Source of the DNA: Methyloversatilis sp. RAC08
Lineage (GTDB): Bacteria; Pseudomonadota; Gammaproteobacteria; Burkholderiales; Rhodocyclaceae
NCBI RefSeq assembly: GCF_001713355.1
Contig: NZ_CP016448.1
Location: forward strand, 1,426,001-1,490,000
Length of the DNA stretch: 64,000 bases
Reading direction: 5' to 3'
Position numbers and translations under genes: made by a program. Shown here one piece after another: positions 7,403-26,630 of the stretch. The notes under the pieces were generated by a model that was not told the origin of the DNA, ran no database searches, and worked only from the letters and a program-made list of their open reading frames with translations. The stretch's first letter is position 1. Every line of letters begins with the position of its first letter.

Positions 7403-7403
7403 G

Positions 7404-7622
7404 TCAACCTCCTCCCACTGCGACGACGATTTCCACGCGGTCGCCGTGATTGAGCCAGGTGCAGTCGAATGCACTGCGCGGTACGATTTCGCCATTGCGC
7501 TCGACCGCGATGCGGCGTGTGCGCAAGGCCTTGCCGTCGAGCAGGCTGCCGACCGACATGACGGCGTCCAGCCGCTCGATCTGTCCATTGACGGTGACCA
7601 GCGAAGGGCGCGGGTCAGTCAT
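7404..7622 (-). CDS. thiS: Sulfur carrier protein ThiS
   Basis: Ubiquitin-like sulfur carrier for thiazole synthesis, 72 residues with the required C-terminal Gly-Gly (ends VVAVGGG). It overlaps lipA by 8 bp upstream and leaves 1 bp before thiG. Its terminal GGA GGA GGT codons also supply the Shine-Dalgarno sequence of thiG. The thiF/thiO partners are not in this cluster. Confidence 0.93.
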
Positions 7623-8565: not shown

Positions 8566-8585
8566 TTCTTGTCCTTCATCGGGTT

Positions 8586-10859: not shown

Positions 10860-11834
10860 TCAGTAAGAGACGTAGACGTCTGCCATCAGGTCTTCGGGCA
10901 AGGGCAGCGGATCTGCCTTGGCCTTCACCACCGATGCTTCGATCAGGGTCTTCACCTCGACATCAATGGCTTCGAGCTCGGCCATCGACAGTTCGCCGCG
11001 AGACGTCACGCGACGTGCGAACTGCATCAGGCAGTCCTTGGTTTCGCGCAGCTTCTGCACTTCGCCCGGTGCGCGGTAGGTCTGCTGGTCGCCTTCGAAG
11101 TGGCCGTAGTAGCGCGACAGCTTCACTTCGAGCAGCGTCGGTCCGCCGCCTTCGCGGGCGCGCTTGACCGCTTCGCCGGCCGCTTCATGCACGGCGAAGA
11201 AATCGAAACCGTCGGCGATGACGCCCGGCATTCCGAAGGCTGAGGCACGGTCTGCGATGTTCTCGCAGGCGACCGAGAATTTGCTGGCGGTCGCTTCGGC
11301 ATAGCCGTTGTTCTCGCCGACGAAGATGACCGGCAGCTTCCACACGGCTGCCAGATTCATGGCCTCGAAAATCGTGCCCTGATTGGACGCGCCATCACCG
11401 AAGAAGCACACGCCGACGTTGTTGCTGCCGCGCAGCTTGGACGCCAGCGCGGTACCGCAGATCAGCGGGCCGCCGCCACCGACGATGCCATTGGCACCCA
11501 GCATGCCGACGTCAAGATCAGCGATGTGCATCGAGCCGCCCTTGCCCTTGCAGGTGCCGGTGCGCTTGCCCCAGATCTCGGCCATCATGCCGACAGGATC
11601 GACGCCCTTGGCGATGCAGTGGCCGTGGCCACGGTGGGTACTGGCGATGTAGTCGTCGCGGTTCAGGTGCATGCAGATGCCGGTCGCCGACGCTTCCTCA
11701 CCGGCATACAGGTGGACGAAGCCGGGGATTTCGCCAGTGGCGAAATCGACGTGCAGACGTTCCTCGAATTCCCGGATCGTGCGCATGGTCCGGTAAGCCT
11801 GCAGCAGGCCTTCCCTGGTCAATGAACTGCTCAT
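10860..11834 (-). CDS. acoA: Acetoin dehydrogenase E1 alpha subunit
   Basis: Alpha chain of the thiamine-diphosphate E1 component, 324 residues from MSSSLTREG. The ThDP motif is GDGASNQGTIFEAMNLAAVW with VGENNGYAEAT following; HRGHGHCIAKG (near residue 65) carries the conserved histidines, and the phosphorylation-loop-like SRYYGHFEGD is near the C-terminus. The start at 11834 follows GAGGAGC and overlaps the end of a small upstream ORF by 4 bp. It is the third reading frame of the acoX-led operon. Confidence 0.95.
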   Translation of the reverse strand: MSSSLTREGLLQAYRTMRTIREFEERLHVDFATGEIPGFVHLYAGEEASATGICMHLNRDDYIASTHRGHGHCIAKGVDPVGMMAEIWGKRTGTCKGKGGSMHIADLDVGMLGANGIVGGGGPLICGTALASKLRGSNNVGVCFFGDGASNQGTIFEAMNLAAVWKLPVIFVGENNGYAEATASKFSVACENIADRASAFGMPGVIADGFDFFAVHEAAGEAVKRAREGGGPTLLEVKLSRYYGHFEGDQQTYRAPGEVQKLRETKDCLMQFARRVTSRGELSMAELEAIDVEVKTLIEASVVKAKADPLPLPEDLMADVYVSY

Positions 11835-11980
11835 GGGTGCTCCTCGTTGTGGATGGAATGACAAGCCCGCTGATCTCCGGCAGCTGCGGGCGGTTGGCCG
11901 GACGAACCGGGCACGAAGGCGCTGGCGGCTGGCGCCGGCACCTCCGGGGAGAGACGGGACAGGGCGCGCACGCGGCTCAT
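11831..11980 (-). CDS. Possible 49-codon linker ORF between acoX and acoA
   Basis: An ORF of 49 codons (MSRVRALSRLSPEVPAPAAS at the start) fills the acoX-acoA gap. Its ATG overlaps the acoX stop by 4 bp (ATGA) and its TGA overlaps the acoA ATG by 4 bp. No domain is recognised and it is Pro/Ala-rich. It could be a real small protein, a translational-coupling leader for acoA, or chance in GC-rich DNA. Confidence 0.35.
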   Translation of the reverse strand: MSRVRALSRLSPEVPAPAASAFVPGSSGQPPAAAGDQRACHSIHNEEHP

Positions 11981-13020
11981 GCCGGGCTCCCTGCGTAGTG
12001 GCGCAGCACGCGTCGGCGCGCCGCGTTTTCGAGTACGGCGGCGACATCGATGGTCAGCGGGCCGTGCAGGTCGAGTTGGACGCTGATGCGGTTCGACGGA
12101 TCGAACTCGATCTCGCGCTCGCCATCGAGCGCGATGGTGCCGCTCTGCGGCGCGAGCTCGACCGGCTGCCCGGGCAACAGGCGGCCGTACTCGCGGATGC
12201 CGACCGCGCTGATCAGTCCCGGGGCAATCGGCACGATCACCTGCTGCGGCGTAAGCGTCGTGTCGGCGCAGCGCACATGCAGGCCGTGCGGCGCGCTGCG
12301 GGTGACCGGTTCGAGCTGGCCGGCGATCGCCGACAGACCGATCGCATCGGCCCCGGCGAAGGCGACGAACAGTTCTTCCAGCAGCGCGCTGTCCCACACG
12401 GCGCGCGAGCCGACGTAGTTGTGGCGCGTGACGCACACATCGACCAGAGCGATGTCCGTGCGGTCATCGCAGCGCACGCGCAGCAGCTTGTTGCGCCGCA
12501 CGCCGACATCGGCCGGCACGGCACCGGTGGCCAGCAGGCCGGCCGCCAGTCCGGCGACCGTGGCTTCGCGCATTTCGGGAAAGGCGTTGTTGGTGCCGGT
12601 GGACAGCGCCAGCAGCGGCACCTGGCCGCAGCGCGCCGCCACGGCGCGATGCGTGCCGTCGCCGCCGAGCACGATGATGGCGCCGGCACCCGCCTGACAC
12701 ATCAGCTCGGTCGCCAGCAGCGTATCTTCGGCCGAGCCGGTCACCGGCATGTCGATGAAGCGCGGCTGCACCGTGACCGGGGAACCGGTGGTCACCGACA
12801 GCGCGCGGAACAGCGGGCCGCAGATGCCGCCCGTGTCGGGCATGATCATCACGTCGCGCACGCCGGCCGCTTCCAGCCCGGCGATCGCCCGCACCATCAT
12901 GCTGGCCTTCTCGGCGTTCGGAAACACCGACGCCCGCGACGTCAGGCGGCGGATGTCCCGGCCCGATGCGGGATTCGCGATGATGCCGACGAGGGCGGGA
13001 CGGGGCGGGACGGACAGCAC
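11977..13020 (-). CDS. acoX: AcoX, ATP-NAD kinase-like protein of acetoin operons
   Basis: First gene of the acetoin operon; its family resembles NAD kinases but its exact role is unknown. Visible motifs are GIIANPASGRDIRRL near the start and the kinase-type IIVLGGDGTHRAV with STGTNNAFPE after it. An ATG at 13056 is in frame, but the sigma-54 promoter at 13057-13072 would start RNA near 13046, inside that reading frame. I therefore place the start at GTG 13020, about 10 nt after a GGAG, giving 347 residues and an N-terminus like other AcoX proteins (MLSVPPRPALVGIIANP). Confidence 0.88.
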   Translation of the reverse strand: MLSVPPRPALVGIIANPASGRDIRRLTSRASVFPNAEKASMMVRAIAGLEAAGVRDVMIMPDTGGICGPLFRALSVTTGSPVTVQPRFIDMPVTGSAEDTLLATELMCQAGAGAIIVLGGDGTHRAVAARCGQVPLLALSTGTNNAFPEMREATVAGLAAGLLATGAVPADVGVRRNKLLRVRCDDRTDIALVDVCVTRHNYVGSRAVWDSALLEELFVAFAGADAIGLSAIAGQLEPVTRSAPHGLHVRCADTTLTPQQVIVPIAPGLISAVGIREYGRLLPGQPVELAPQSGTIALDGEREIEFDPSNRISVQLDLHGPLTIDVAAVLENAARRRVLRHYAGSPA

Positions 13021-13056: not shown

Positions 13057-13072
13057 TGCATCGGCCGTGCCA
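13057..13072 (-). promoter_or_regulatory. Sigma-54 (RpoN) promoter of acoX operon
   Basis: On the reverse strand the sequence is TGGCACGGCCGATGCA: a full TGGCACG -24 element, exact GG-N10-GC spacing, and ATGCA against the TTGCW -12 consensus. The expected RNA start is near 13046. It lies beside a sigma-54 activator gene (acoR), as expected for acetoin operons. Confidence 0.85.
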
Positions 13073-13203
13073 GCGCCATCCCGCCAGCCTCGCCGGCGCT
13101 GACAAGCGGATGATTCTTAAGCGCTCTTCGGCACCTGGTCCGCGTCGACGCAACACGCGGCCACCCACCTGTCGCATCGCCGCCGGCTGCGACAACGGGT
13201 CAT

Positions 13204-13241
13204 TGAGACACCTGTCTCACTTTTCGGAGACATTCGTCGCG
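13204..13241. promoter_or_regulatory. Upstream activator sites of the aco operon
   Basis: TGAGACACCTGTCTCA (13204-13219) is a perfect 7+2+7 inverted repeat about 160-170 bp upstream of the predicted acoX RNA start. GGAGACATTCGTCGCG (13226-13241) keeps the GAC-N4-GTC core and is a likely second site. A further partial match (TGCGACAGGTGG on the reverse strand) lies near 13167-13178. Position and symmetry fit an enhancer for a sigma-54 activator. The same motif occurs upstream of both PQQ dehydrogenase transcription units. Confidence 0.7.
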
Positions 13242-13352
13242 TTGATTTCAGGCGGTTCAGGGCTTACCCTCAATTCACAAAAGTGAAACGCCGCGGCAGA
13301 CGCCGTCGCACGCGGTGTTTCGATAGTTGTACATATTCGTGAGGAGATGGAC

Positions 13353-15404
13353 ATGGACCGCGGACACACAATCTCGGAACACGTCGGCCGGGTACTCAAG
13401 GCCATCGAAGCACCCAGCCGATCCGCTCCGCTTCATGCGGAGCACGACCGGCTGACGCGCTCGTGGCACCGGTCGCTGAACAAGCACTCGATAGACCCCG
13501 GGCGGGCGACGACACCAAAGGTCGTCACCGCCTACGAACTGCGCGAACATCGCGACCGCCTCGAAACCTTCATGCGCATCGCGCGCGAAGGCGTCGAGCG
13601 ACTGCACCATCAGGTGCTGCTCGCCGACTACTGCGTGCTGCTGACCGACGCCCAGGGCGTGACGGTCGATTTCCGCACCGTGCCGCACCTCGAGCGAGAA
13701 CTGAAGGACGAAGGCTTTCGCAACGGCACCTGCTGGGCGGAAGAACACGAAGGTACCTGTGGCGTCGGCACCAGCCTGATCGACTGCCAGCCCACGCTGG
13801 TCCATCGCGGCGAACACTTCCGTGCCCACAACATCAGCTTCACCTGCAGTTCGGTGCCCATTGTCGGTCTTGAAGACGAGCCGATCGCCGTGCTCGATGC
13901 ATCGGCGCTGTACTCGCCTGAACAGCGCGAAAGCCAGCTGCTGATCTACCGCATGGTGCTCGACAAGGCGCGCCTGATCGAGGACGCCTACGCCCACTAC
14001 AGCCTGCGCAACCACTGGATACTGCAGCTCGGCCCGATCGCCGAATTCCTGCCGGTCGAAACCGACTACCTGATCGCGTTCGACGACAGCGGCCGCATCG
14101 TCGGCGGCAACCGGCGCGCCCGCCACGAACTGATCAACCACAACGGGCGCCGCGCCGAATACCTGCACGACCTGTTCGAATGCACCGCCAGCGGCATCAT
14201 GGCTGCTGCGCATGCCAGCCCGGGCGCACCGTTTCCGCTGCGCATGTTCGCCACCGGTCAGCGCCTGTTTGCCGTGCTGCGCGCGCCGCACGCCCGCACG
14301 TTGCCGCAGATTGCCGCCAAGCCGGTCGCCGAGGCGGAAGACCTGACGGCGCCACGCGGATTCCGCCACCTCGCGCTGGGCGACCCGCGCGTGAAGGCCA
14401 ATGTCGGCTGCGCGGTGCGCGTGGCCAACCGCGACATTCCGGTCATGCTGCTGGGCGAGACCGGCACCGGCAAGGAGGCGTTCGCGCGCGGCATCCACGA
14501 TTTCAGCGACCGCGCCAAACAGCCGTTCGTCGCGCTCAACTGCGCCGCGATCCCGGAAAGCCTGATCGAGAGCGAACTGTTCGGCTACCGCGACGGCGCC
14601 TTCACCGGTGCCCGCAACAAGGGCTCGAAGGGCAAGATCCTTCAGTCCGACGGCGGCACCCTGTTTCTCGACGAAATCGGCGACATGCCGTTGTCGCTGC
14701 AAAGCCGACTGCTGCGCGTGCTCGCCGAAGGCGAGGTGGTGCCGCTCGGCGCCGAACAGCCGACGCCGGTGCGCCTGCATGTGATCTGCGCGACCCATCA
14801 GGACCTGCCGGAACTGGTGCGCGAGGGGCGCTTCCGCGAAGACCTGTTCTACCGCCTCAACGGCGCCTCGTTCACGCTGCCGCCGCTGCGCGAGCGCGAG
14901 GACAAGCAGGCGCTGATCGAACAGGTGATGCTGGAAGAAAGCACCGCGATGGAACGCATCGGCATTTCGATCGAGGCACAGACCATGGACGTGCTGCTGG
15001 CCTACAGCTGGCCGGGCAACATCCGCCAGCTGCGGCACGCTGTTCGCTACGCCTGCGCCATTGCGGAAGGTCCGCAGGTGCGACTCGAACATTTCCCGCA
15101 TGAGCTGCGCGCCGGCAACAAGCCAGCGCGCGTCGCCCTTCCGCCACCGCCGGAGCAGCAGCCGGTGGTCGCAGCCATTGCGTATGACGCCTGCGAAGAC
15201 GACAGCGGCGAGCCATTGAGTGAAATGTGTCTGCAGCTGCGCCAGAAGATGCTCGAGGCATTGCGCCGCAATCACTGGAAGGTGACCGAAACGGCGCGTC
15301 AGCTCGGCATGTCGCGAGCCACCTTCTACCGCAAGATGGCACGTCTGCGCATCGTGGCGCCCAACTACCTCGACAGCGCCGAGCGGTCCGCCCAGCAGGG
15401 CTGA
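13353..15404 (+). CDS. acoR: Sigma-54-dependent activator AcoR
   Basis: Transcription activator of acetoin catabolism. The N-terminal sensory part (about 1-320) contains a GAF-like domain (GTCWAEEHEGTCGVGTSL, then HRGEHF). The AAA+ domain (about 335-560) has Walker A GETGTGKE, the sigma-54 contact loop GAFTGA, and TLFLDEIGDMP. The C-terminus has a Fis-type helix-turn-helix (KVTETARQLGMSRATFYRKM). GAGGAG touches the first ATG (13347) and is ideally spaced from the second (13353), which I choose, giving 683 residues. It is divergent from acoX. There is no receiver domain, so a ligand rather than phosphorylation probably controls it. Confidence 0.93.
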   Translation: MDRGHTISEHVGRVLKAIEAPSRSAPLHAEHDRLTRSWHRSLNKHSIDPGRATTPKVVTAYELREHRDRLETFMRIAREGVERLHHQVLLADYCVLLTDAQGVTVDFRTVPHLERELKDEGFRNGTCWAEEHEGTCGVGTSLIDCQPTLVHRGEHFRAHNISFTCSSVPIVGLEDEPIAVLDASALYSPEQRESQLLIYRMVLDKARLIEDAYAHYSLRNHWILQLGPIAEFLPVETDYLIAFDDSGRIVGGNRRARHELINHNGRRAEYLHDLFECTASGIMAAAHASPGAPFPLRMFATGQRLFAVLRAPHARTLPQIAAKPVAEAEDLTAPRGFRHLALGDPRVKANVGCAVRVANRDIPVMLLGETGTGKEAFARGIHDFSDRAKQPFVALNCAAIPESLIESELFGYRDGAFTGARNKGSKGKILQSDGGTLFLDEIGDMPLSLQSRLLRVLAEGEVVPLGAEQPTPVRLHVICATHQDLPELVREGRFREDLFYRLNGASFTLPPLREREDKQALIEQVMLEESTAMERIGISIEAQTMDVLLAYSWPGNIRQLRHAVRYACAIAEGPQVRLEHFPHELRAGNKPARVALPPPPEQQPVVAAIAYDACEDDSGEPLSEMCLQLRQKMLEALRRNHWKVTETARQLGMSRATFYRKMARLRIVAPNYLDSAERSAQQG

Positions 15405-15414
15405 ACCGTTGGCA

Positions 15415-15448
15415 TCCGTCCCGCTGCAGCCTCACGCTGCGGGACGGA
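15415..15448. terminator. Hairpin between acoR and the convergent cytochrome gene
   Basis: TCCGTCCCGC and GCGGGACGGA form a perfect 10-bp stem with a 14-nt loop in the 68-bp gap between two converging genes. There is no long T-run on either side. A bidirectional terminator is likely from its position. Confidence 0.6.
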
Positions 15449-15472
15449 CACCGCAGCCCTTCCGGCCACGTC

Positions 15473-15868
15473 CTACTGCGTGCCGAGAAACTTGATGTAA
15501 GCCACCAGTTCCCATATCTGATCGGTCGAAAACGCTGCGCCCCAGGGCGGCATGATGTCCGACGTGCGACGTCCGTGGAAGATCGTGCGGAAAGCCTCTT
15601 CGTCCGCCAGATCGGTGCGTCCCTTGAAATCGGGGGCGCGCCCGCCGACACCATCCGAACCATGGCAGTAGCCCGCGCAGGTCTTGTTGAAACGCTTCTT
15701 GCCGAGGGCGATCCGCTCCGGATCGGTCAGATCGAAGGATGGTGCAACAATCGGTTCTTCGGTTGCCATGGCGGGTGACGGCGCGGCCCAGATCATGCCC
15801 AGGGCAATCACCAGTGCGCTTACGGTCAGCCGGCCTGCGGCATTGCTGCGTGGAGTTTCATGAGTCAT
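15473..15868 (-). CDS. Periplasmic cytochrome c with CX3CH heme motif
   Basis: A small secreted class I-like cytochrome c, 131 residues from ATG 15868. The signal peptide is near residues 12-35 (hydrophobic LTVSALVIALGMIWA, cleavage after AMA). The heme site reads TCAGYCHG: C64, C68, H69, i.e. CxxxCH with three residues between the cysteines rather than CxxCH. A likely axial methionine is M106 in SDIMPPWG. It follows PQQ dehydrogenase 1 on the same strand, so it probably takes electrons from it. The upstream gap 15869-16054 holds a hairpin at 16017-16042 and no ORF I would call. Confidence 0.85.
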   Translation of the reverse strand: MTHETPRSNAAGRLTVSALVIALGMIWAAPSPAMATEEPIVAPSFDLTDPERIALGKKRFNKTCAGYCHGSDGVGGRAPDFKGRTDLADEEAFRTIFHGRRTSDIMPPWGAAFSTDQIWELVAYIKFLGTQ

Positions 15869-16016
15869 TGCTTGAAGTCCTCGTCGGGTTTCCCAATCAG
15901 GGTCTCGTGACATTCCATCACGATCCGATTGAATGTCAGCAGACCCCAGCAACAGTGTGAACGAAAAAAAACAGGCAGCAACATGAGTAACCGCCTGTGA
16001 ATGAGGAGACATGCCA

Positions 16017-16042
16017 CCCCGGCGCGGAGCCACGCGCCGGGG
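16017..16042 (-). terminator. GC-rich hairpin after PQQ dehydrogenase 1
   Basis: CCCCGGCGCG and CGCGCCGGGG form a perfect 10-bp stem with a 6-nt loop, starting 13 bp beyond the dehydrogenase stop. With no T-run it may be a partial terminator or 3'-end stabiliser that sets the dehydrogenase:cytochrome ratio. Confidence 0.55.
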
Positions 16043-16054
16043 GTTCCAACGTTG

Positions 16055-17737
16055 CTACTCCAACGTGAAAGCGATGATTGCAGCGCCGCCCGGCAGATCC
16101 TTGATCTGCGGGAATGCACCTGCGAGGAAGCCCGGAGCATGCGAGCCCAGACCGGTCGGGAACACGATGTACTGCTTGCCCTTCACCGAGTAGCTGACCG
16201 GCCCGCCACGCAGGCCCGAGCCCGAATTGAAGGACCACAGTTCCTTGCCGGTTTCAGCGTCGTAGCCGAAGATCTTGCCTTCCAGATCGCCGGTGAACAC
16301 CAGCCCGCCTGCCGTGGTGAGGACCGAAGACAGCGGCGGCATGTCGTACTTGATCGACCATTTGAGCTTGCCGGTCAGCGGATCACGTGCGTCCAGACGG
16401 CCATGCGGCTTGCTGTTGGGCGGCGCCACCAGCTTGATCGACTCGATGCCCAGCGACAGCGCCGAAACGGCCTTCAGGTTGTCCGGATCATCCTTGCCGG
16501 CCACCACCTCGTTGCAGACTTCCATCGCATGCGAGTACCACAGGCCGGTGCCCGGGTTGTAGGCGCCGTGATTCCAGCTGCGCGCACCGAGCAGGTTCGG
16601 ACAGAAGGTCTTCACCTTGTCGACTTCCGGGTAGATCGGATCGATCAGCGCACCGGTCTTCGGGTCGATGCCCTTGACCCAGTTCACGTTCTCGGAGAAC
16701 TGCCACACGTTTTCAAGTGCGCCATCCTTCTTGTCCATCACGAACACGAAGCCACCCTTGTTCAGGTGGACGATGACGTCCTTGCCGTCCTTCTGCACGA
16801 CCAGCGCTTCGTACGCCGAGTCGTAGTCCCACGAATCGTTCGGGACTTCCTGACGATGCCACTTCAGCTTGCCGGTCTTGCCTTCGATCGCGAGCAGCGA
16901 AGCCGTATAGAGGTTGTCGCCCTTGCGGTCGTAGTTGTAGTAGTCGGGGGCTGCGTTCGACGTACCGATGTAGATCGTGTCGGTCTTCGCGTCGTAGGTG
17001 CCCGGCATCCAGGCGCTGCCGCCACCGACCTTGCCGCTGTCGCCCGGCCAGCTCTTCGGATCATTCTTGATCACGTCGAAGGTCCACGCCGGCTTGCCGG
17101 TGTCGGCATTGACGGCGTAGATCTTGCCCGAGATCGGCTGATCGCCGCCGGTGGTGCCGCCAAACAGGATATTGCCGGCCAGCTGCGGCGGAGCGGAGAA
17201 CAACGCGCCGTACTGCGTCTTCGGATCGGTGAGCTGTGTCGACCACAATTGCTTGCCGGTCTTCTGGTCGAGCGCGATGAAGCGGCCATCCAGCGTACCC
17301 ACGAACACCTTGCCGCGACCCACGGTCACGCCGCGGCTGGCTGCGCCGTAGAACACCTGTTCGACGATCTTGTCGAGCTTCGGAGCGAACTGCCACAGCG
17401 TCTTGCCGGTGGCGGCATCGATCGCCCATACATTGTTGTTGGCCGAAATCGTGTACATCACGCCATCGATGACGATGGGCGTCGACTGCAGGCCGTGCGT
17501 GATGTTGCCCGGCTGGTGCACCCAGGCCACCTTCAGCTTCTTCACGTTTTCGCGCGTGATCTGGTTCAGCGGGCTGAAGCGCCAGGCATTGCTGGTGCGG
17601 TGATATTCGGGCCAGTTGTTCGGGTCTTCAAAGCCAGCCTTGCCCTGCGCCATGGCGGGTGCCGCGGTCAGGAAGGACAGCGCCGAGCCTGCCAGAAGGG
17701 CAGCCGACAGGCGGAACATCTTGCGTGAGGCGGTCAT
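16055..17737 (-). CDS. PQQ-dependent alcohol dehydrogenase 1 (lanthanide-type site, no vicinal Cys pair)
   Basis: Periplasmic quinoprotein of the methanol/ethanol dehydrogenase family, 560 residues. A signal peptide (about 1-30, ending APAMA) precedes an eight-bladed propeller with repeated AxDxxTGKxLW motifs. The catalytic segment is WDYD (D304, D306); the second Asp is the hallmark of lanthanide-dependent enzymes. Other probable metal ligands are D199 (GGD, where most relatives have GGE) and N261. The vicinal Cys-Cys next to PQQ in typical members is absent: the segment reads VFYGAASRGV. GGAG lies 8 nt before ATG. The substrate is unknown; it is probably in one unit with the porin gene upstream and the cytochrome gene downstream. 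Confidence 0.9.
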   Translation of the reverse strand: MTASRKMFRLSAALLAGSALSFLTAAPAMAQGKAGFEDPNNWPEYHRTSNAWRFSPLNQITRENVKKLKVAWVHQPGNITHGLQSTPIVIDGVMYTISANNNVWAIDAATGKTLWQFAPKLDKIVEQVFYGAASRGVTVGRGKVFVGTLDGRFIALDQKTGKQLWSTQLTDPKTQYGALFSAPPQLAGNILFGGTTGGDQPISGKIYAVNADTGKPAWTFDVIKNDPKSWPGDSGKVGGGSAWMPGTYDAKTDTIYIGTSNAAPDYYNYDRKGDNLYTASLLAIEGKTGKLKWHRQEVPNDSWDYDSAYEALVVQKDGKDVIVHLNKGGFVFVMDKKDGALENVWQFSENVNWVKGIDPKTGALIDPIYPEVDKVKTFCPNLLGARSWNHGAYNPGTGLWYSHAMEVCNEVVAGKDDPDNLKAVSALSLGIESIKLVAPPNSKPHGRLDARDPLTGKLKWSIKYDMPPLSSVLTTAGGLVFTGDLEGKIFGYDAETGKELWSFNSGSGLRGGPVSYSVKGKQYIVFPTGLGSHAPGFLAGAFPQIKDLPGGAAIIAFTLE

Positions 17738-17806
17738 CTATCAATCTCCATTCACTGGGTTCATTCACCCGGGTTCAGCCCCGGGTGTTCAGACAGTCGC
17801 GTTGCT

Positions 17807-18988
17807 TCAGAACATGAAATTCAGGCCGACATTGAGCAGCGTGCTCTTCTCGCCGGCGGTCACGCCTGCGGCGACGATGCTGGTGCGCAGCGTGGCACCC
17901 GCATCGGCATCGGCGTACGCGAACTGCACGTACAGCGTGGTGTCCGGCCGCCACTGGTAGTCATTGCTGATGACGAGGAACTTCGTTTCGTCGGTCTTGT
18001 TCCTGTCGTCCTTGTTGATGTAGTACGCAACGGTGGCCGAATTCTTGGCGTGCCACTTCCAGTCCAGGCCCGTGCCGAAGCCGTTGATGTCGGCCAGTTC
18101 GGCGCCGGTGCGCGCATCGTTCTTCGCGTTCATCCAGTTGTTCTTCCAGATGAAGTCGCCGAACGGAATCGCGAAGCCGAGCGACGTGTGCTCGATGTTG
18201 CTCTTGCCGGTCTGCTCGTCGTTCATCGCCTGGTAGGACGCGGACAGCGTGATCGGGCCGTTGTAGGTCGCACCCAGGGCATACGAGCTGTTGTCCTTGG
18301 CCGAACCGGGCTGACCGCCGAACGCGTACAGCACGCCGAAATTCACCGGGCCGACAGTATGTCTGTACTGCACGGCGTTGCTGAAGAAAATACCCACATC
18401 GTTGTTGGTGTTGCGGTCGCCGCCAGGTGCATTGGCGGTCGTGAACAACTGGCCGTAGGCCCACGCATACAGGTTGGAGAACTGTTCCTTGAAGGCACGC
18501 GGTTCGGTGCCGATGTGGGCCAGCAGTGCCGGGCCGTACTGACGGCCGACCGTCACGCTACCCCAGTCGCCGCGCACACCCAGATTCGCCTGACGCCGGA
18601 ACAGCGGCGTGTTGTTCGTACCCCCGCGCGGCGCATCACCGGTGCCGTGCAGGAAGCCGTCGTTGGTATCGAAGTGCGATTCGAGGTTGAAGAACGCGGT
18701 GAGATTCGGCTGCAGTTCGCGCTCGCCCTTGAAACCGATAACAGTCTGACGCAGACCGCTGGTTTCCATCGAAGTCTTGCTGTCACCGCTGGCGTTCGCC
18801 TTGCTGTTGTACAGCAGGCCAACGTCGATGATGCCGAACATCGACAGCTTGGTACCGGCCACTTCACCGATCACGATGTCGGCTTGCGCCGCACCGGGAA
18901 CCATCATCATTGCCGCAGCGACTGCCGCTGCCAGCGTGCATGCGTTGCGTGCGCCCTGCGCCGACGCGCCAGAGATCTTCTTTTTCAT
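17807..18988 (-). CDS. Gram-negative outer-membrane porin
   Basis: A trimeric-type general porin, 393 residues from MKKKISGASAQ (ATG 18988 behind GGAGGGGAG). The signal peptide ends near AAQA. The mature start DIVIGEVAGTKLSMFGIIDVGL is porin-like, and the protein ends in an outer-membrane phenylalanine (LLNVGLNFMF). It lies 69 bp upstream of PQQ dehydrogenase 1 on the same strand and has a sigma-54 promoter, so it may admit the alcohol that the dehydrogenase oxidises. The frame continues upstream to 19087, but without a ribosome site. Confidence 0.9.
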   Translation of the reverse strand: MKKKISGASAQGARNACTLAAAVAAAMMMVPGAAQADIVIGEVAGTKLSMFGIIDVGLLYNSKANASGDSKTSMETSGLRQTVIGFKGERELQPNLTAFFNLESHFDTNDGFLHGTGDAPRGGTNNTPLFRRQANLGVRGDWGSVTVGRQYGPALLAHIGTEPRAFKEQFSNLYAWAYGQLFTTANAPGGDRNTNNDVGIFFSNAVQYRHTVGPVNFGVLYAFGGQPGSAKDNSSYALGATYNGPITLSASYQAMNDEQTGKSNIEHTSLGFAIPFGDFIWKNNWMNAKNDARTGAELADINGFGTGLDWKWHAKNSATVAYYINKDDRNKTDETKFLVISNDYQWRPDTTLYVQFAYADADAGATLRTSIVAAGVTAGEKSTLLNVGLNFMF

Positions 18989-19070
18989 ACTCCCCTCCGA
19001 TTGTTGATGTCGAAACTTCGAGCTTCGACGCGGCGCCGCTTTCGGCGACACCTTCGTCGGAGAACACAAG

Positions 19071-19086
19071 GGCAGAATCCATGCCA
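19071..19086 (-). promoter_or_regulatory. Sigma-54 promoter of porin/PQQ dehydrogenase 1
   Basis: The reverse strand reads TGGCATGGATTCTGCC, with exact GG-N10-GC spacing and six of seven -24 bases. The predicted RNA start is near 19060, 72 nt before the porin ATG. The first 11 bases match those of the PQQ dehydrogenase 2 promoter (TGGCATGGATG). Confidence 0.7.
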
Positions 19087-19149
19087 ACGCTCACGGCATT
19101 GAATTGACTGGGTATTTTTCCCGGACCCTGAGAATCACCCGGAGAGACA

Positions 19150-19226
19150 TGCGACAGATGTCTTGGCAAAGGCCGAGAAACTGCGACATCTGTATCGACC
19201 GCGCGAAGGGCGTCGCAGGTGTCTCG
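19150..19226. promoter_or_regulatory. Cluster of activator-site copies upstream of the porin
   Basis: Three related 16-mers lie about 90-165 bp upstream of the predicted porin RNA start: TGCGACAGATGTCTTG (19150-19165), TGCGACATCTGTATCG (19182-19197) and, on the reverse strand, CGAGACACCTGCGACG (19211-19226). They share GACA-N2-TGT or GACACCTG cores with the aco and PQQ dehydrogenase 2 sites. The rest of the 469-bp gap 18989-19457 holds only the porin promoter and the thiC leader; no gene was seen. Confidence 0.6.
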
Positions 19227-19253
19227 CGAGACGCCTTGGCGTGCGTCCGATGA

Positions 19254-21407
<2,154 letters not shown>

Positions 21408-21442
21408 GGCGCGCAGCGGCGGCTCTCGCCGGAGCTGTTCCT

Positions 21443-21526
21443 GTGGGAGCGGTGCCCTCGCCGCGATCGGCGCATTGATCAACGATCATCACGGCATCCA
21501 TCGCGGCGAGGCCGCCGCTCCCACAG
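21443..21526. repeat. REP palindrome pair (BIME) downstream of thiC
   Basis: TGTGGGAGCGGTGCCCTCG and its near-inverse (GAGGCCGCCGCTCCCACA) face each other across about 35 bp. This is the GTGGGAGC-type REP found through this window. A spare CTGTTC remnant precedes it, like the 15-bp units at 27606. Confidence 0.8.
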
Positions 21527-21567
21527 TCCCTGCGCTGAAGGACGGGCCGTGGCGCCAGGGGCGCCTC
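21511..21567. repeat. 57-bp direct repeat, copy 1
   Basis: The segment from the REP arm through GTCCCTGCGCTGAAGGACGG to GGGGCGCCT is repeated at 22061-22117 with a few changes. The two copies bracket the minisatellite and the second REP pair. Copy 2 runs into the last codon of the lipoprotein gene, so copy 1 includes a duplicated gene end. Confidence 0.75.
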
Positions 21568-21570
21568 CCC

Positions 21571-21960
21571 TGTGGGAGCTTGCTGTGGGAGCTTGCTGTG
21601 GGAGCTTGCTGTGGGAGCTTGCTGTGGGAGCTTGCTGTGGGAGCTTGCTGTGGGAGCTTGCTGTGGGAGCTTGCTGTGGGAGCTTGCTGTGGGAGCTTGC
21701 TGTGGGAGCTTGCTGTGGGAGCTTGCTGTGGGAGCTTGCTGTGGGAGCTTGCTGTGGGAGCTTGCTGTGGGAGCTTGCTGTGGGAGCTTGCTGTGGGAGC
21801 TTGCTGTGGGAGCTTGCTGTGGGAGCTTGCTGTGGGAGCTTGCTGTGGGAGCTTGCTGTGGGAGCTTGCTGTGGGAGCTTGCTGTGGGAGCTTGCTGTGG
21901 GAGCTTGCTGTGGGAGCTTGCTGTGGGAGCTTGCTGTGGGAGCTTGCTGTGGGAGCTTGC
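21571..21960. repeat. Minisatellite: 30 exact copies of a 13-bp REP-head unit
   Basis: Thirty uninterrupted, identical copies of TGTGGGAGCTTGC fill 390 bp and run straight into TGTGGGAGCGG, the head of the next REP pair. The unit is the REP head GTGGGAGC plus TTGCT. Because 13 is not a multiple of three, all frames stay open and give spurious ORFs such as repeats of WELAVGACCGSLL. Perfect identity implies recent amplification, or active homogenisation by slippage. Confidence 0.97.
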
Positions 21961-22046
21961 TGTGGGAGCGGCGGCCTCGCCGCGATGCGCGCGCTGATCT
22001 TCGACCATCGCTGCACTGATCGCGGCGAGGCCGCCGCTCCCACAGC
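21961..22046. repeat. REP palindrome pair (BIME) after the minisatellite
   Basis: Two 26-bp arms, beginning TGTGGGAGCGGCGGCCTCG and ending in its exact inverse, flank a loop of about 32 bp. The arms are identical to those of the pair at 27652-27737. A lone half-copy (GCCGCCGCTCCCACAG) follows at 22061. The 21408-22115 interval holds no gene. Confidence 0.85.
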
Positions 22047-22060
22047 GGTCAACCCCTCAG

Positions 22061-22117
22061 GCCGCCGCTCCCACAGTCCCTGCGCTCAAGGACGGGCAAG
22101 TGGTTCAGGGGGCGCCT
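22061..22117. repeat. 57-bp direct repeat, copy 2
   Basis: This is the second copy of the segment at 21511-21567. It starts inside a half-REP and ends in the stop codon of the lipoprotein gene. Confidence 0.7.
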
Positions 22118-22727
22118 ATTGCAGCGCCTTGATCTGCTCCGGTGACAGACCCTTTACCGCTTTCGCCGCCGATTCACGGGCGCGGTCGCGGTCGGTTTCG
22201 ATGATGGCGTGCACCGAGTTCATCACCTTGTCGTACGCGGCAGCGGCTTCTTCCTTGCTGATCTGGCCGGCGGCGGCGCGCTCGCAGGTACGGTAGAGCG
22301 ACTCGCGCAGGAAGGACAGCATCTGCGTGCGTTCGGCCAGCCTGACGACCGACGCGTCGAGCTCCGCCGATCCGCCTTGCGACTTGCCCTGCGTCGCTTC
22401 CAGCCGTGCGATGAGTTTGAGGGTGGCGTCCGGCGCGGCTTCCGCGCAGCTGCGGACGGCAGGTGCCGGGGCAGCAGCGGGAACTGCCGCCGCCGCTGCA
22501 ACAGCGCCAGCCCCAGCACCCGTCGCAGGACGCGCGGGCTCGGCCATCCCGAGCTTTTCGCTGAGCGTGACCGCCGGTGTCACCGGCTTCAGTGAATGGT
22601 CGTACTTCGCCCAATACTGCTTGTGGCTGTCCGGCGCCTCATCACGCCCGGCACTTTTCGTCCCGAGACCGGCGCAGCCGGACAGGAACAGCGTGGCGAG
22701 CACGACGGATATCGGCAGGGATTTCAT
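22116..22727 (-). CDS. Hypothetical lipoprotein
   Basis: I do not recognise the family. The 203-residue protein has a lipoprotein signal with lipobox LSGC (Cys at about residue 18). An Ala/Pro-rich middle (about 70-92) leads into a helical C-terminal domain (about 95-203) with two further cysteines. The start follows AAAAGGAGCC. It is the last gene on this strand after the PQQ dehydrogenase 2 cluster, 105 bp beyond the HbpS-like gene, and may or may not belong to that unit. The stop codon touches a duplicated 57-bp repeat. Confidence 0.7.
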   Translation of the reverse strand: MKSLPISVVLATLFLSGCAGLGTKSAGRDEAPDSHKQYWAKYDHSLKPVTPAVTLSEKLGMAEPARPATGAGAGAVAAAAAVPAAAPAPAVRSCAEAAPDATLKLIARLEATQGKSQGGSAELDASVVRLAERTQMLSFLRESLYRTCERAAAGQISKEEAAAAYDKVMNSVHAIIETDRDRARESAAKAVKGLSPEQIKALQ

Positions 22728-22832
22728 TCTGGCTCCTTTTGAATTCTTGGTATGTGTTGTGCCGCGGCTCGGCGCCAGCGTGCATCCATCTTCTTAGCAA
22801 GAAAAAGGCCAGAGAGGTGCCGGCCCAATCCC

Positions 22833-23333
22833 TCACATCAGGTGCTTGACTGCGTCCAGCGCCTTCTGCGCGCACACCTCATCTTCCTCTTCCGAGCCGC
22901 CGCTGACACCGATGCTGCCGATATGCGCGCCCTTCGAGGTCACGATCGGCAGACCGCCTATTATGGTGGTGGTGTGAGGAATCAGCTCGGCGCCGATCAC
23001 CGTCTTCGACAATTCGCGGAACTGGCGCGTCGAAAACGGCGCGCCGGCCGACGTGTCGGCCTTCAGCTGCGCGACGCGGATGCTGATCAGGATGCTGCCA
23101 TCCATCCGGCTGAAATGCTTCGGATTGCCGGCTTCGTCGTTGATCGCGATGATCATGCGCCAGCCCTTTTCCTTCGCATGGCGTTCGCACGCGTCGGCCA
23201 TCAGACGGGCAGTGGCAAGGTCGAGCGTGGGGCGTGCCGACTGTGCCAGCGCGGGTGCGGCCATCAGTGCGCCTGCGCAGGCGAAGGCGGCAAGCAGGCC
23301 GCGTGATGCAGCCTTGAATCGTTCGTTGTTCAT
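22833..23333 (-). CDS. GlcG/HbpS family secreted protein
   Basis: A 166-residue protein with a signal peptide (cleavage near ALAQS, residue 31) and a GlcG/HbpS-type domain: LATARLMADACERHAKEKGW, then INDEAGNPKHFSRMDGS, and the Gly-rich IGSIGVSGGSEEEDE. Relatives bind heme or small cofactors; in alcohol-oxidation clusters their role is unsettled. It lies 33 bp after a cytochrome c gene and is probably co-transcribed with PQQ dehydrogenase 2. Confidence 0.83.
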   Translation of the reverse strand: MNNERFKAASRGLLAAFACAGALMAAPALAQSARPTLDLATARLMADACERHAKEKGWRMIIAINDEAGNPKHFSRMDGSILISIRVAQLKADTSAGAPFSTRQFRELSKTVIGAELIPHTTTIIGGLPIVTSKGAHIGSIGVSGGSEEEDEVCAQKALDAVKHLM

Positions 23334-23366
23334 CAGGTTCTTTCCGGTGAGTCGTGCTGGAGCGGT

Positions 23367-23780
23367 TCAGTAATACGGAATCTCGTCTTCATCCTTGGCG
23401 ATCTTGTCAGCCGCCTGCACGCGCAGCGCTTCCTCGCGCAGGAAGGCGATGATCTGCCAGATTTCCTCTTCCTTCAGCGAGTTGGCGAAGCCGCCCATCT
23501 GGGTACCGGCACGGCCGTGGGCGATCAGTTCGAACATCTGGCCATCACTGTTCGCGCCACCCGGGCCCCAGGCGCCCTTGACCAGCTGCGGCCCCTTGCC
23601 GCCCTTGCCGCGCGAGTTGTGGCACTGCTGGCAGTTGCGGCCGAACAGTTCTTCACCCTTGCCGGCCGCACTGCGATCACCCGCCATCGGATTATTGGCC
23701 GGCGCCTGGCCCGGGCCGAACGCCTGCACGCTGCCAGCCAGCGCCAGCAGCAGCACACACCGTGCTGTGTATCGAATCAT
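23367..23780 (-). CDS. Periplasmic cytochrome c (CxxCH)
   Basis: A 137-residue secreted monoheme cytochrome. The signal peptide ends near VQA (residue 20). The heme motif is CQQCH (C50, C53, H54) and a likely axial Met lies in QMGGFANSL. The ATG at 23780 follows AGGAAGGAG. It sits between the periplasmic binding protein and the HbpS-like gene and is the probable electron acceptor of PQQ dehydrogenase 2. Its normal CxxCH contrasts with the CxxxCH cytochrome at 15473. Confidence 0.88.
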   Translation of the reverse strand: MIRYTARCVLLLALAGSVQAFGPGQAPANNPMAGDRSAAGKGEELFGRNCQQCHNSRGKGGKGPQLVKGAWGPGGANSDGQMFELIAHGRAGTQMGGFANSLKEEEIWQIIAFLREEALRVQAADKIAKDEDEIPYY

Positions 23781-23842
23781 CTGCCACTCCTTCCTGTTGC
23801 AGCCCGCGGGCAGACAACGCCCGCGTGGCCAGTACATCTCCA

Positions 23843-24640
23843 TCATCTGCCGCCGTGCTGCTTGCCGGTCGGCAGTCCGTTCCGCGTGGCGATCGCGTCG
23901 AGCGAGCCATCGGCCTGCAGCGCGCCGAGTGCCGCCTCCACCGCCGCTGTCAACGCCGTGTCGCTGCGCCGGCTGACCATGACGAAGCGGGTCTGCAGTG
24001 CGGGCGCCTGCAGCGCTTCGCGCACGACCACACCTGCGGGCAATGCATCACCCGCCACCCGTCCTGCCCACAGCAGGCCGGCGCCGACCTGGCCCTTCGC
24101 CAGCGCGTCCAGAAGTGCCGCGCTGCCGGAGAACGGCGAGCGGTTGAAGCCGCCGGCCAGCAGGTACAGATCAGCCGGCGTGGCGGTGACCGCGCCGATC
24201 TTCTGCGCGCCCACCGCGGCCATCGATCCGATCGCGCTGGCCGCCGGCGTCAGCAGCACGTAGCCGACCGACACATAGGGCTGCGACGCCACCAGTCCGC
24301 GTGTCGAGAGGTCGTCATCGCTGCCTTCGGTCACCGGCATGCCGGCGAACAGCTCGCAACTGCCGGCCTGCACCGATTCCTTGAGTGCGCGACCCAGACC
24401 GCCGCGCTCCTGCAGCGTGATCCACTGCCAGTGCACCGCGCGGCCAAGACGCGCCGCGATGGCCTGGGCGACATCCACGTCGACACCCACCGGTGGGAGC
24501 GTGCGCGAAGAGAACGGCGGGTTCTGTTCGACCACGCACACGGCGAGCGCGGCGGGCGCCCCGCCCGCCGACATCGGCAGCGCGGCACACGCCAGCAACC
24601 CGAACAGGCATCGCAATGAACGTGCCGCGCTGCGCGTCAT
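23843..24640 (-). CDS. Quinoprotein-associated periplasmic binding protein (MxaJ/XoxJ-like)
   Basis: A 265-residue protein of the family-3 solute-binding fold with a signal peptide (hydrophobic LRCLFGLLACAALPMSA) and the typical start AVCVVEQNPPFSS. It lacks partner ABC permease genes. Proteins of this type beside PQQ alcohol dehydrogenases (MxaJ, XoxJ) are thought to help maturation or activation of the dehydrogenase rather than transport. I use ATG 24640, 4 nt past the dehydrogenase stop; an in-frame TTG at 24655 would overlap that gene. Confidence 0.78.
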   Translation of the reverse strand: MTRSAARSLRCLFGLLACAALPMSAGGAPAALAVCVVEQNPPFSSRTLPPVGVDVDVAQAIAARLGRAVHWQWITLQERGGLGRALKESVQAGSCELFAGMPVTEGSDDDLSTRGLVASQPYVSVGYVLLTPAASAIGSMAAVGAQKIGAVTATPADLYLLAGGFNRSPFSGSAALLDALAKGQVGAGLLWAGRVAGDALPAGVVVREALQAPALQTRFVMVSRRSDTALTAAVEAALGALQADGSLDAIATRNGLPTGKQHGGR

Positions 24641-24644
24641 GCGT

Positions 24645-26390
24645 TCAGTCCGCAAGACCGAACACCATCATTCCGCCGCCGCGGTTCTGCTGCTTGAACA
24701 GCTCGCCGTAGACCAGCGGCCACAGGCTGCCGCCGCCCGGGCCATACACGATGGCGACGTACTGCTTGCCGTCGACCGTGAAGGTGGTCGGGTTGCCGTG
24801 GATGCCGGTACCGACGTTGAAGCGCCACAGCGTTTCGCCCGAGTCATCGCGCATGGCCGAGAAGAAGCCTTCGGCATCACCCGAGAACACCAGACCGCCG
24901 GCGGTCGCCAGCAGGCCACTGGTGGCCGGCGTGCTCTGCGGACGCGACCACACCTGTTCGCCGGTGGTGGCGTTGAACGCCTTGATGCCGCCGGTGTACG
25001 GGTTGGCCTTCAGCACCCTGGACGACAGGAACCACTCGCCGCGCTTCCATTCCATCTTCTTGGCCTGGACGTCCATCGAGCTGTCGATGAAAGGTACATA
25101 CAGCAGCTTGGTCTGCGGGCTGTAGGCCGCCGGGTGCCATTCCTTGCCGCCGTCGAGAATCGGGGCGATGTCGGTGGCGATCTTGTCGTAGCCGGGCACC
25201 TTGTCCGGATTGACGATGGGGCGGCAGTTGTCCTTGAAGCCGGTCACCCAGTTCACGCGCGCAATCGGCACCACCCAGTTGCACTTGCCATTGGTGCGGT
25301 CGATCGAATACAGGTGGCCATTGCGGTCACCGTGCAGCCACACCTTGCGGCCCTTCTCGTCGTCGACCAGGATGGTTTCGTTGTTGCCGTCGTAATCCCA
25401 GGCATCGTTCGGCGTGTACTGGAAGTGGAACTTGATCTTGCCGGTCTTCGCGTCCATCGCCAGCGTCGAGTTGCTGTACAGGTTGTCGCCCTTGCGCACC
25501 GACGGATCGAAGTCGGGCGACGGATTGCCGACCCCCCAGTAGATCGTGTTGGTCTTGGCTTCGTAGTTGCCGGTCAGCCAGGCCGACGCGCCACCGGTGC
25601 GCCACGAATCGTTGGCCCAGGTGGCGGCGTGCGGGTCGCTCGGGCTGTTCGGCCGGGTCAGCGTCTGCCAGACGATTTCGCCGGTATCCGGATCGAGCGC
25701 AGTGATCTTGCCGACGTTGCCGCCGACATCACCGCCCGAATTGCCGACCACGATCTTGCCGTCGGCCACCAGCGGCATCGACGTGTAGATTTCGCCGCTG
25801 GTGTAGTCGCCCATCTTCTTTTCCCACACGACACGGCCGGTGGTGTTGTTCAGCGCGACGATGTGGGTATCGAGCGTGGCCATGTAGACCATGTCCTTGT
25901 ACACCGCGACACCGCGATTCACCGCTTCGCAGCACAGGCGCGGGCCGAGGTCACCCGGCAGCGAGCGCTCGTACTTCCAGATCATGCGTCCGGTCGAGCC
26001 ATCGAGCGAGAACACCTTGTTCTGGCTGGCGGTGACGTAGATGCGGCCATTCACCACCGTGGTCTGGCTGACCTGCGCGTCATTGACGCCGAACGACAGA
26101 TTCCACTTCGGCACCAGCTTCTTCACGTTGTCGCGCGTCACCTGACCGAGCTGCGAAAAGCGCCAGCCCTGATAGTCCTTGCCGTAGTGCAGCCAGTTGT
26201 TGGCGTCCTTGTCGGCGTGGATGAGCATGTCGTCGCTGACGTAGTTCGGACGCCACTTGAAGGTGGCTTCGAGCACGTTCACGCCGAGCGGCGGTTCCGG
26301 ATCTTCGGCCTGCACGGCGGCATTCAGGCCGAACATCGCGACCAGGCAGGTCAGGACAGGTCCGGCAAGGCGACCGGTTTGCTTGTTCAT
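24645..26390 (-). CDS. PQQ-dependent alcohol dehydrogenase 2 (lanthanide-type site)
   Basis: Periplasmic quinoprotein of the ExaA/PedH/XoxF superfamily, 581 residues from MNKQTGRLAG (ATG 26390 behind GGAGGAG). The signal peptide ends near VQAED. It has the vicinal cysteine pair C153-C154 in RLCCEAVNRG, probable metal ligands D221 (NSGGD, usually GGE), N289 (GVGNPSP), and D332/D334 in WDYD. The extra Asp334 indicates lanthanide rather than calcium use. Propeller repeats such as LDPDTGEIVW are clear. It heads a unit with the binding protein, cytochrome c and HbpS-like genes, controlled from a sigma-54 promoter. Ethanol or another short alcohol is the likely substrate. Confidence 0.93.
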   Translation of the reverse strand: MNKQTGRLAGPVLTCLVAMFGLNAAVQAEDPEPPLGVNVLEATFKWRPNYVSDDMLIHADKDANNWLHYGKDYQGWRFSQLGQVTRDNVKKLVPKWNLSFGVNDAQVSQTTVVNGRIYVTASQNKVFSLDGSTGRMIWKYERSLPGDLGPRLCCEAVNRGVAVYKDMVYMATLDTHIVALNNTTGRVVWEKKMGDYTSGEIYTSMPLVADGKIVVGNSGGDVGGNVGKITALDPDTGEIVWQTLTRPNSPSDPHAATWANDSWRTGGASAWLTGNYEAKTNTIYWGVGNPSPDFDPSVRKGDNLYSNSTLAMDAKTGKIKFHFQYTPNDAWDYDGNNETILVDDEKGRKVWLHGDRNGHLYSIDRTNGKCNWVVPIARVNWVTGFKDNCRPIVNPDKVPGYDKIATDIAPILDGGKEWHPAAYSPQTKLLYVPFIDSSMDVQAKKMEWKRGEWFLSSRVLKANPYTGGIKAFNATTGEQVWSRPQSTPATSGLLATAGGLVFSGDAEGFFSAMRDDSGETLWRFNVGTGIHGNPTTFTVDGKQYVAIVYGPGGGSLWPLVYGELFKQQNRGGGMMVFGLAD

Positions 26391-26455
26391 GGGTTCTCCT
26401 CCGTTTTTTTCGGATGCGCACAGCGGCATCCGGCGACAACGCGCGTGAGAATAAT

Positions 26456-26471
26456 TGCATCATCCATGCCA
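26456..26471 (-). promoter_or_regulatory. Sigma-54 promoter of PQQ dehydrogenase 2
   Basis: The reverse strand reads TGGCATGGATGATGCA, with exact GG-N10-GC spacing and ATGCA as in the acoX promoter. The predicted RNA start is near 26445, leaving a 55-nt leader before the ATG. Confidence 0.78.
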
Positions 26472-26589
26472 GAATCGAGCAGGCCGGGCACGACGGCGCC
26501 GTACGGGAAAAAATCCTTTGTGATCAATGCGGGTAAATTTCCCCAAACGAAACGGGGTTATTCCTGCAGCAGGCGGGCGCACAGCAGGA

Positions 26590-26630
26590 TGAGACGAACG
26601 TCTCAGCGCGCAGAGGCTACAGGTGTCTCA
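26590..26630. promoter_or_regulatory. Upstream activator sites of PQQ dehydrogenase 2
   Basis: TGAGACGAACGTCTCA (26590-26605) is a perfect 7+2+7 inverted repeat about 145-160 bp upstream of the predicted RNA start. A second copy on the reverse strand at 26615-26630 reads TGAGACACCTGTAGCC, sharing its first 12 bases exactly with the acoX upstream palindrome. Confidence 0.72.

Follow-up and report, generated by a model that had tools for sequence, protein, structure and literature searches.

A predicted AcoR/sigma-54 regulon joining acetoin cleavage with two PQQ alcohol dehydrogenase units in Methyloversatilis sp. RAC08

Introduction

The acetoin operon of Cupriavidus necator has an acoXABC layout and is sigma-54 dependent. 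AcoR of this species has been reported to respond to acetoin, and its acetoin promoter is acetoin-inducible (PMC7057948), while the acoR promoter of Pseudomonas aeruginosa is described as responding to both acetoin and 2,3-butanediol (PMC9249247). In P. putida, the pyrroloquinoline quinone (PQQ)-dependent dehydrogenases PedE and PedH are reported to convert (2S,3S)-2,3-butanediol to acetoin, which is then cleaved by the acetoin dehydrogenase system (PMC8427195). Here, a 64,000-nucleotide stretch (the window) of the single-contig, 3.94-Mb genome of Methyloversatilis sp. RAC08 was analyzed. It contains acoR, acoXABC, and two PQQ alcohol dehydrogenase genes, here called pqq1 and pqq2. Paired palindromic sites upstream of three predicted sigma-54 promoters suggest that acoXABC, the porin-pqq1-cytochrome unit, and the pqq2 unit very probably form one AcoR/sigma-54 regulon, for which known families point to acetoin as the signal and to the likely substrates.

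As in C. necator, an AcoR-type activator accompanies the acetoin genes; here, however, the site found at the aco promoter also occurs before a porin-PQQ dehydrogenase unit and before a second PQQ dehydrogenase unit. The proposed route resembles that of P. putida KT2440, in which PedE and PedH feed acetoin to the aco system (PMC8427195), but there aco is said only to be one that "might be regulated by AcoR," whereas pedE and pedH are described as being under a lanthanide switch; in a 2026 paper on ped regulation, the words AcoR and acetoin are absent (PMC12997753). The AcoR homologue Rsc3129 of Ralstonia solanacearum has been tied to ethanol catabolism and RpoN, but its predicted target is ExaC rather than PQQ dehydrogenases (PMC4676750). 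Pelobacter carbinolicus has three AcoR paralogues beside dehydrogenase/oxidoreductase genes, but these involve several AcoRs and butanediol dehydrogenases of the medium-chain and short-chain dehydrogenase/reductase types (PMC3543383). Control of PQQ dehydrogenases or of a porin by AcoR was not found in the open-access literature, a search to which most subscription papers are external and which does not establish absence in print. The system described below would be that of a known activator with an enlarged regulon.

Paired palindromes upstream of three predicted sigma-54 promoters

Each of the three promoters has two upstream copies of one palindrome, approximately TGMGACRNNYGTCKCA (Table 1). 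A first-pass annotation of this DNA had placed a sigma-54-type promoter before each of three minus-strand units, and all three were found in place, with GG-N10-GC in a TGGCAYG-N5-TGC context that is conserved in every genome read; RpoN-dependent transcription from them is predicted. The motif strings named upstream of aco and pqq2 (TGAGACACCTGTCTCA, TGAGACGAACGTCTCA, and TGAGACACCTGTAGCC) are likewise present. Among the three variants proposed before the porin, the two at 19150 and 19182 are conserved in all 11 relatives, whereas the third is not conserved among relatives and was rejected as a site. The site centers lie 72–163 bp upstream of the −24 G at the three promoters, which is the usual range for sigma-54 activator sites.

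The 890 bp of the three promoter regions contain seven sites that agree with the consensus at 11 or more of 14 positions, compared with 30 in the remaining 63,110 bp; first-order Markov resamples yielded a mean of 0.61 such sites, and none of 5,000 reached seven. Because the symmetric consensus TGMGACRNNYGTCKCA was partly shaped by these sites, and one of the seven is the unconserved third porin site, this count is supporting evidence only and is outweighed by the matrix results and genome comparisons.

In its strong form, the motif is not common genome-wide, so the first-pass proposal survives the objection that it had itself raised, although a looser form is common (see below). TGNGACNNNNGTCNCA occurs at three places in the whole genome, two of which are the aco and pqq2 sites; the third (locus L001) lies about 320 bp from a sigma-54-like match of 10. 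Two further genome palindromes with one mismatch (L034 and L035) have no sigma-54-like match of at least 10 within 500 bp. A search for GTCKCA followed by a spacer (50–80, 81–104, or 105–135 bases) and TGGCAYGNNNNNTGC gave five places in this genome, compared with two for the reversed control: four correspond to aco, pqq2, and the porin (twice), and one (1385906) is unrelated. The GTCGCA behind the aco match sits between the palindrome and the promoter; the GTCTCA of the palindrome itself also fits, at 131 bases.

Prediction of the sites from other genomes

A matrix was built from 13 hand-picked acetoin-promoter sites from relatives (AcoR at 76–88%), Zoogloea, two Paraburkholderia, and an Azoarcus metagenome-assembled genome (MAG). 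In the window, to which the kind of matrix scan that the first-pass annotation had suggested for the whole genome was applied, the pairs of sites at aco, the porin, and pqq2 together took ranks 1–6, and rank 7 lay elsewhere with a score of 10.9 versus 12.25 for rank 6. Five of the 13 training strings also occur in the window, and one of them, taken from an acetoin promoter of Paraburkholderia, matches the window pqq2 site exactly; a stricter matrix used the other eight. With that matrix, one aco, both porin, and one pqq2 site held ranks 1–4 and the other two sites ranks 6 and 8, ranks 5 and 7 falling elsewhere. The porin and pqq2 sites thus ranked 2 and 4–6 with the 13-site matrix and 2, 3, 4, and 6 with the eight-site matrix (TGAGACGAACGTCTCA, 2 and 4; porin proximal, 4 and 2; porin distal, 5 and 3; TGAGACACCTGTAGCC, 6 in both), and aco site B ranked 3 and 8, respectively. 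The site before each unit was therefore predicted from the aco promoters of other genomes, as would be expected of a shared operator. In 13 scored loci of relatives, the best match was always at the aco or pqq2 promoter; seven of these (L053–L059) had supplied training sites, and six pqq2 loci (L071–L076) had not.

Conservation within the genus

All 11 same-genus relatives with an AcoR orthologue share the gene order lipA-acoCBAX / acoR / cytochrome-pqq1-porin / thiC. Promoter conservation was counted over the window plus these relatives (12 genomes), and gene mapping covered 39 loci. In all 12 genomes, TGGCACG-N5-TGCA is present at the acoX promoter, together with a perfect site and, 22 bp from it, a second one (site B) with 10 of 14 matches to TGAGACANNTGTCTCA. 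The porin promoter has, in all 12, a TGGCAYG-type sequence and two aligned sites 32–33 bp apart; the distal site retains 12–13 of 14 matches throughout, and the proximal site 12–13 in eight genomes and 10 in four (L055, L056, L058, and L059). Orthologues of pqq2 (87–100% identity) are present in 11 genomes including the window, each with a sigma-54 promoter and a pair of sites spaced by 25 bp, and in G001, G011, and G005 the gene lies far from acoR on the same contig.

Across 13 whole genomes of the genus, TGAGACNNNNGTCTCA occurs at 18 places, consisting of 12 acoX and six pqq2 promoters, and its reversed control at none. The relaxed TGMGACRNNYGTCKCA gives 21 places, namely the same 18 plus three, made up of a string common to G011 and G004 (L288, which was read, and L290) and one occurrence inside a recQ-like frame in G002. 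TGAGACNNNNGTCTCA is missing from G002, one of the 13, in which an AcoR orthologue (best match 49%), acoB (none at E 1e-60), and a pqq2 orthologue (best 44%) were also not found; several AcoR-like activators (34–49%) are retained. In the wider order (399 genomes), palindrome counts stay at the background level (29 places, two of them in this genome, versus 25 control places), and among 26 palindrome loci read outside the genus, only L243 (acoX/acoR) and L244 and L250 (AcoR-like genes) tie to the system. From the GTCKCA-spacer-promoter searches, 51 loci, a part of all matches, were read: 38 correspond to aco, pqq2, or porin promoters, and the other 13 lie elsewhere. The matrix, the genus-confined exact palindromes, and this promoter-plus-site search support the first-pass suggestion that AcoR may control the PQQ dehydrogenases and porin.

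One genus genome, G008, has no pqq2 orthologue but carries a pqq2-type promoter (L057, 5950–6814), with site CGAGACACCTGTCTCG followed by TGGCATGGATGCTGCA, directly before the lipoprotein gene that in the window comes after the pqq2 genes. The dehydrogenase part appears to have been deleted, leaving the promoter in place.

The candidate regulator

AcoR has a sigma-54 activator domain with GAFTGA and a Fis-type helix-turn-helix (HTH), and acoR adjoins and diverges from acoXABC in the window and in 11 of 11 relatives. The claim that it is the only sigma-54 activator encoded here is accurate for the window, where it is the sole protein with GAFTGA or ESELFG in six frames; the genome, however, has 17 AcoR-like matches, and its uniqueness in the window is therefore weak evidence.

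The nearest named AcoR matches are from Zoogloea oleivorans and the Azoarcus MAG (both 64%). Among 80 AcoR-like loci from named genomes, 40 (L096–L135) were read, eight of which have aco genes near acoR. A perfect palindrome precedes the aco genes in five of these eight (Zoogloea L096, Paraburkholderia L097 and L099, and Pseudomonas L100 and L102, the last two with a five-base center) and a near-perfect one in the Azoarcus MAG (L103), where sites of the same kind also precede pqq1. None of the remaining 32 loci read has a perfect palindrome. L243 is another case of acoX beside acoR with the palindrome, and the palindrome is absent from all 19 AcoR-like loci of a class-level search, none of which has aco genes in its 1.5-kb flanks.

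In the Pseudomonas loci, a second palindrome, TGAGAC-N5-GTCTCA, precedes a short-chain dehydrogenase gene beside acoR (L100, 12767; L102, 12679), perhaps a butanediol dehydrogenase under AcoR. In P. pisciculturae (L111, 13796–15700), an AcoR-like gene lies near a PQQ dehydrogenase gene; a TGCGAC-type pair of related sites and a strong sigma-54-like match are found at the promoter of the latter, and AcoR-PQQ coupling may therefore extend further. Six genus genomes (L060–L065) have a second AcoR-like gene (47–48%) within 5 kb of another PQQ dehydrogenase gene, with one strong sigma-54-like match per locus and no palindrome of 12 or more.

Proposed regulon and alternative explanations

The sites, promoters, conservation, and linkage to aco-type AcoR were computed here, and a product-induced regulon of oxidation and cleavage would be the simplest reading of them. 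AcoR would bind palindrome pairs some 70–165 bp upstream of the three sigma-54 promoters and activate acoXABC (with lipA and thiG downstream), porin-pqq1-cytochrome, and pqq2-solute-binding protein-cytochrome-HbpS-lipoprotein, with acetoin, judging from known families, as the signal. The porin would admit alcohols; the periplasmic PQQ dehydrogenases would oxidize 2,3-butanediol to acetoin and ethanol to acetaldehyde; and AcoABC would cleave acetoin to acetyl-CoA and acetaldehyde, such that the product of the first oxidation step would switch on the whole route. The wider proposal, that the complete 2,3-butanediol/acetoin pathway of the genus, from periplasm to cytoplasm, has AcoR as its master switch, with acetoin and sigma-54, rather than Pseudomonas-style lanthanide/alcohol two-component systems, controlling two lanthanide-type PQQ dehydrogenases and an alcohol porin, is evenly balanced.

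Several observations weigh against a single AcoR regulon. Pair spacing differs between the aco, porin, and pqq2 promoters (22, 32, and 25 bp, respectively), and neither the porin sites nor the second pqq2 site is perfect. Loose patterns show no enrichment: in the window, a sigma-54-like pattern with up to two mismatches occurs 56 times versus a shuffle mean of 62.6, and TGAGACNNNNGTCTCA with up to three mismatches 10 times versus 22.6, while the palindrome with up to two mismatches occurs at 86 genome places versus 63 for its reversed control. The 16 further AcoR-like matches in the genome leave room for another activator to share the site, two of the eight aco-linked AcoR loci (L098 and L108) lack the palindrome, and pqq1 of the Azoarcus MAG (L103) has a second AcoR-like gene immediately upstream of it. 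Within the genus, pqq2 is absent from G008, its co-orthologues in L079 and L080 (74–77%) do not have the site pair, and G002 represents a single loss event.

The regulon could be real yet respond to acetaldehyde or an alcohol, in which case it would be mainly an ethanol-oxidation regulon that includes acetoin cleavage; this is rather unlikely. PQQ dehydrogenases as a family oxidize ethanol. The R. solanacearum AcoR homologue is predicted to control the acetaldehyde dehydrogenase ExaC in ethanol use (PMC4676750), but acetoin is the reported inducer acting through C. necator AcoR (PMC7057948), and the P. aeruginosa acoR promoter answers acetoin and 2,3-butanediol (PMC9249247).

It is improbable that AcoR controls aco only and that the PQQ palindromes are read by another AcoR-like sigma-54 activator whose DNA preference is the same. 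The 17 AcoR-like matches in the genome would allow it, as would the AcoR-like activators found elsewhere within 10 kb of PQQ dehydrogenase genes (L060–L065, L105, L109, L111, and L118–L121). However, the motif is gone along with AcoR in G002, even though paralogues at 34–49% remain there; the 19 AcoR-like loci with no aco genes in view have no palindrome; and pqq1-porin stands beside acoR in 11 of 11 relatives.

That the sites resemble each other by chance, or because the intergenic DNA has a common origin, is very improbable: close relatives (AcoR at 97–98%) are near-identical across the locus and loose patterns are not enriched in the window, but the sites stand out against diverged flanks in relatives with AcoR at 76–88%, no resample of 5,000 reached seven sites, and pqq2 keeps its sites where neighboring genes differ.

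The AcoR regulon proposed here predicts the DNA motif that AcoR would recognize in Beta- and Gammaproteobacteria and would join PQQ alcohol oxidation and acetoin cleavage in one circuit. It suggests a substrate class (2,3-butanediol, acetoin, and short alcohols) for two anonymous dehydrogenases and a porin, and it lets control of lanthanide-type PQQ dehydrogenases by a cytoplasmic metabolite be tested directly. If true, a whole alcohol-to-energy pathway would be tied to a single signal.

The two PQQ dehydrogenases and their paralogues

The pqq2 product scores 549.5 bits against TIGR03075, above the curated cut-off of 480 bits, whereas pqq1 scores 441.2 bits, its best match but below that cut-off. 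The closest solved structures to pqq2 are 6zcv/6zcw, presumably PedH, whose WDFD aligns with its WDYD; the WDYD of pqq1 aligns with WDFT of 1kv9. Both dehydrogenases thus have an Asp two residues past the catalytic Asp, which is the lanthanide-type residue.

Other PQQ dehydrogenases of the genus (37–40% to pqq2) were considered at 17 loci, 12 of which have a sigma-54-like match of at least 10 and one (L089) an 11/14 site. Paralogues with sigma-54 promoters were rejected as regulon members since the site is missing. Because nearly all of these loci lack the site although most are sigma-54-like, the group seems to be defined by the site rather than by sigma-54 alone.

Gene content of the locus

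Four units are relevant here: acoR, acoXABC, porin-pqq1-cytochrome, and the pqq2 unit (Table 1). The plus-strand acoR diverges from minus-strand acoX-acoA-acoB-acoC, which is followed on the same strand by genes for lipoyl synthase and a thiG-like protein. On the other side of acoR are the minus-strand genes for the porin, PQQ dehydrogenase 1, and a c-type cytochrome, and then plus-strand thiC; farther along, pqq2 heads a run that continues with genes for a solute-binding protein, a cytochrome, an HbpS-like protein, and a lipoprotein. Operon extents past the first genes are predicted from strand and spacing.

Since acoX transcription is expected to start at ~13046, downstream of the ATG of its frame at 13056, the start codon is probably GTG 13020. 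For the thiG-like protein, no NCBIfam thiG match was found and a family search gave no clear name; the name thiG is presumed from its sequence. A Pfam search of the lipoprotein gave no match, and an Rfam scan of the window gave no family above its threshold.

Table 1. Predicted sites, promoters, and genes of the proposed regulon (window coordinates).
Feature	Position	Strand	Basis
Candidate AcoR site A, aco promoter, TGAGACACCTGTCTCA	13204..13219		Conserved in 12/12
Candidate AcoR site B, aco promoter, GGAGACATTCGTCGCG, 22 bp from site A	13226..13241		Aligned in 12/12
Candidate AcoR site, porin promoter, proximal	19150..19165		Aligned in 12/12; 10–13 of 14 matches
Candidate AcoR site, porin promoter, distal, 32 bp from proximal	19182..19197		Aligned in 12/12; 12–13 of 14
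Candidate AcoR site, pqq2 promoter, TGAGACGAACGTCTCA	26590..26605		Matrix and motif searches
Candidate AcoR site, pqq2 promoter, TGAGACACCTGTAGCC, 25 bp from the TGAGACGAACGTCTCA site	26615..26630	-	Orthologue alignment and matrix
Predicted sigma-54 promoter of acoX, TGGCACGGCCGATGCA	13057..13072	-	Kept in 12/12 genomes
Predicted sigma-54 promoter of porin-pqq1 unit, TGGCATGGATTCTGCC	19071..19086	-	Kept in 12/12 genomes
Predicted sigma-54 promoter of pqq2 unit, TGGCATGGATGATGCA	26456..26471	-	Kept in 11/11 orthologues
acoR, sigma-54 enhancer-binding protein (GAFTGA, AAA+, Fis-type HTH)	13347..15404	+	Pfam Sigma54_activat 2.4e-63, HTH_8 2e-9
acoX	11977..13020	-	NAD-kinase-like domain; position and sequence; predicted GTG start
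acoA, E1 alpha	10860..11834	-	Family search; mapping in relatives
acoB, E1 beta	9816..10826	-	Family search; mapping in relatives
acoC, acetoin dehydrogenase dihydrolipoyllysine acetyltransferase	8707..9816	-	NF011457, 495 bits (cut-off 307)
Lipoyl synthase (lipA/acoS-like), 3' of acoC	7615..8568	-	TIGR00510, 420.8 bits; predicted operon member
thiG-like thiazole synthase, 3' of lipA	6590..7399	-	Order lipA-thiG-like also in L096 and L103; predicted operon member
Outer-membrane porin	17807..18988	-	Pfam Porin_4 6e-40
PQQ alcohol dehydrogenase 1 (pqq1), WDYD at metal site	16055..17737	-	TIGR03075, 441.2 bits; solved relatives
c-type cytochrome after pqq1, start approximate	15473..15865	-	Pfam Cytochrome_CBB3 1.3e-14
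PQQ alcohol dehydrogenase 2 (pqq2), WDYD at metal site	24645..26390	-	TIGR03075, 549.5 bits; solved relatives 6zcv/6zcw
Periplasmic solute-binding protein (MoxJ-like, weak)	23843..24640	-	Pfam SBP_bac_3 1.2e-12; TIGR03871, 39.8 bits, below cut-off
c-type cytochrome of pqq2 unit	23367..23780	-	Pfam search
HbpS-like protein of pqq2 unit	22833..23333	-	PF03928 1.3e-28
Lipoprotein	22116..22727	-	Position; predicted member of pqq2 operon

The lipoyl synthase gene adjoins acoC in 11 of 11 relatives, and the lipoyl synthase and thiG-like genes (6590–8568) stand behind acoC in the Zoogloea locus (L096) and the Azoarcus MAG (L103) as well; thiC (19458–21407) adjoins the porin gene. The acetoin enzyme complex requires lipoate and thiamine, and lipoate and thiamine genes thus cluster with its genes. 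Between thiC and the lipoprotein gene, a minus-strand tandem repeat at 21373–22008 encodes PTASSHSKLPQQA units when translated.

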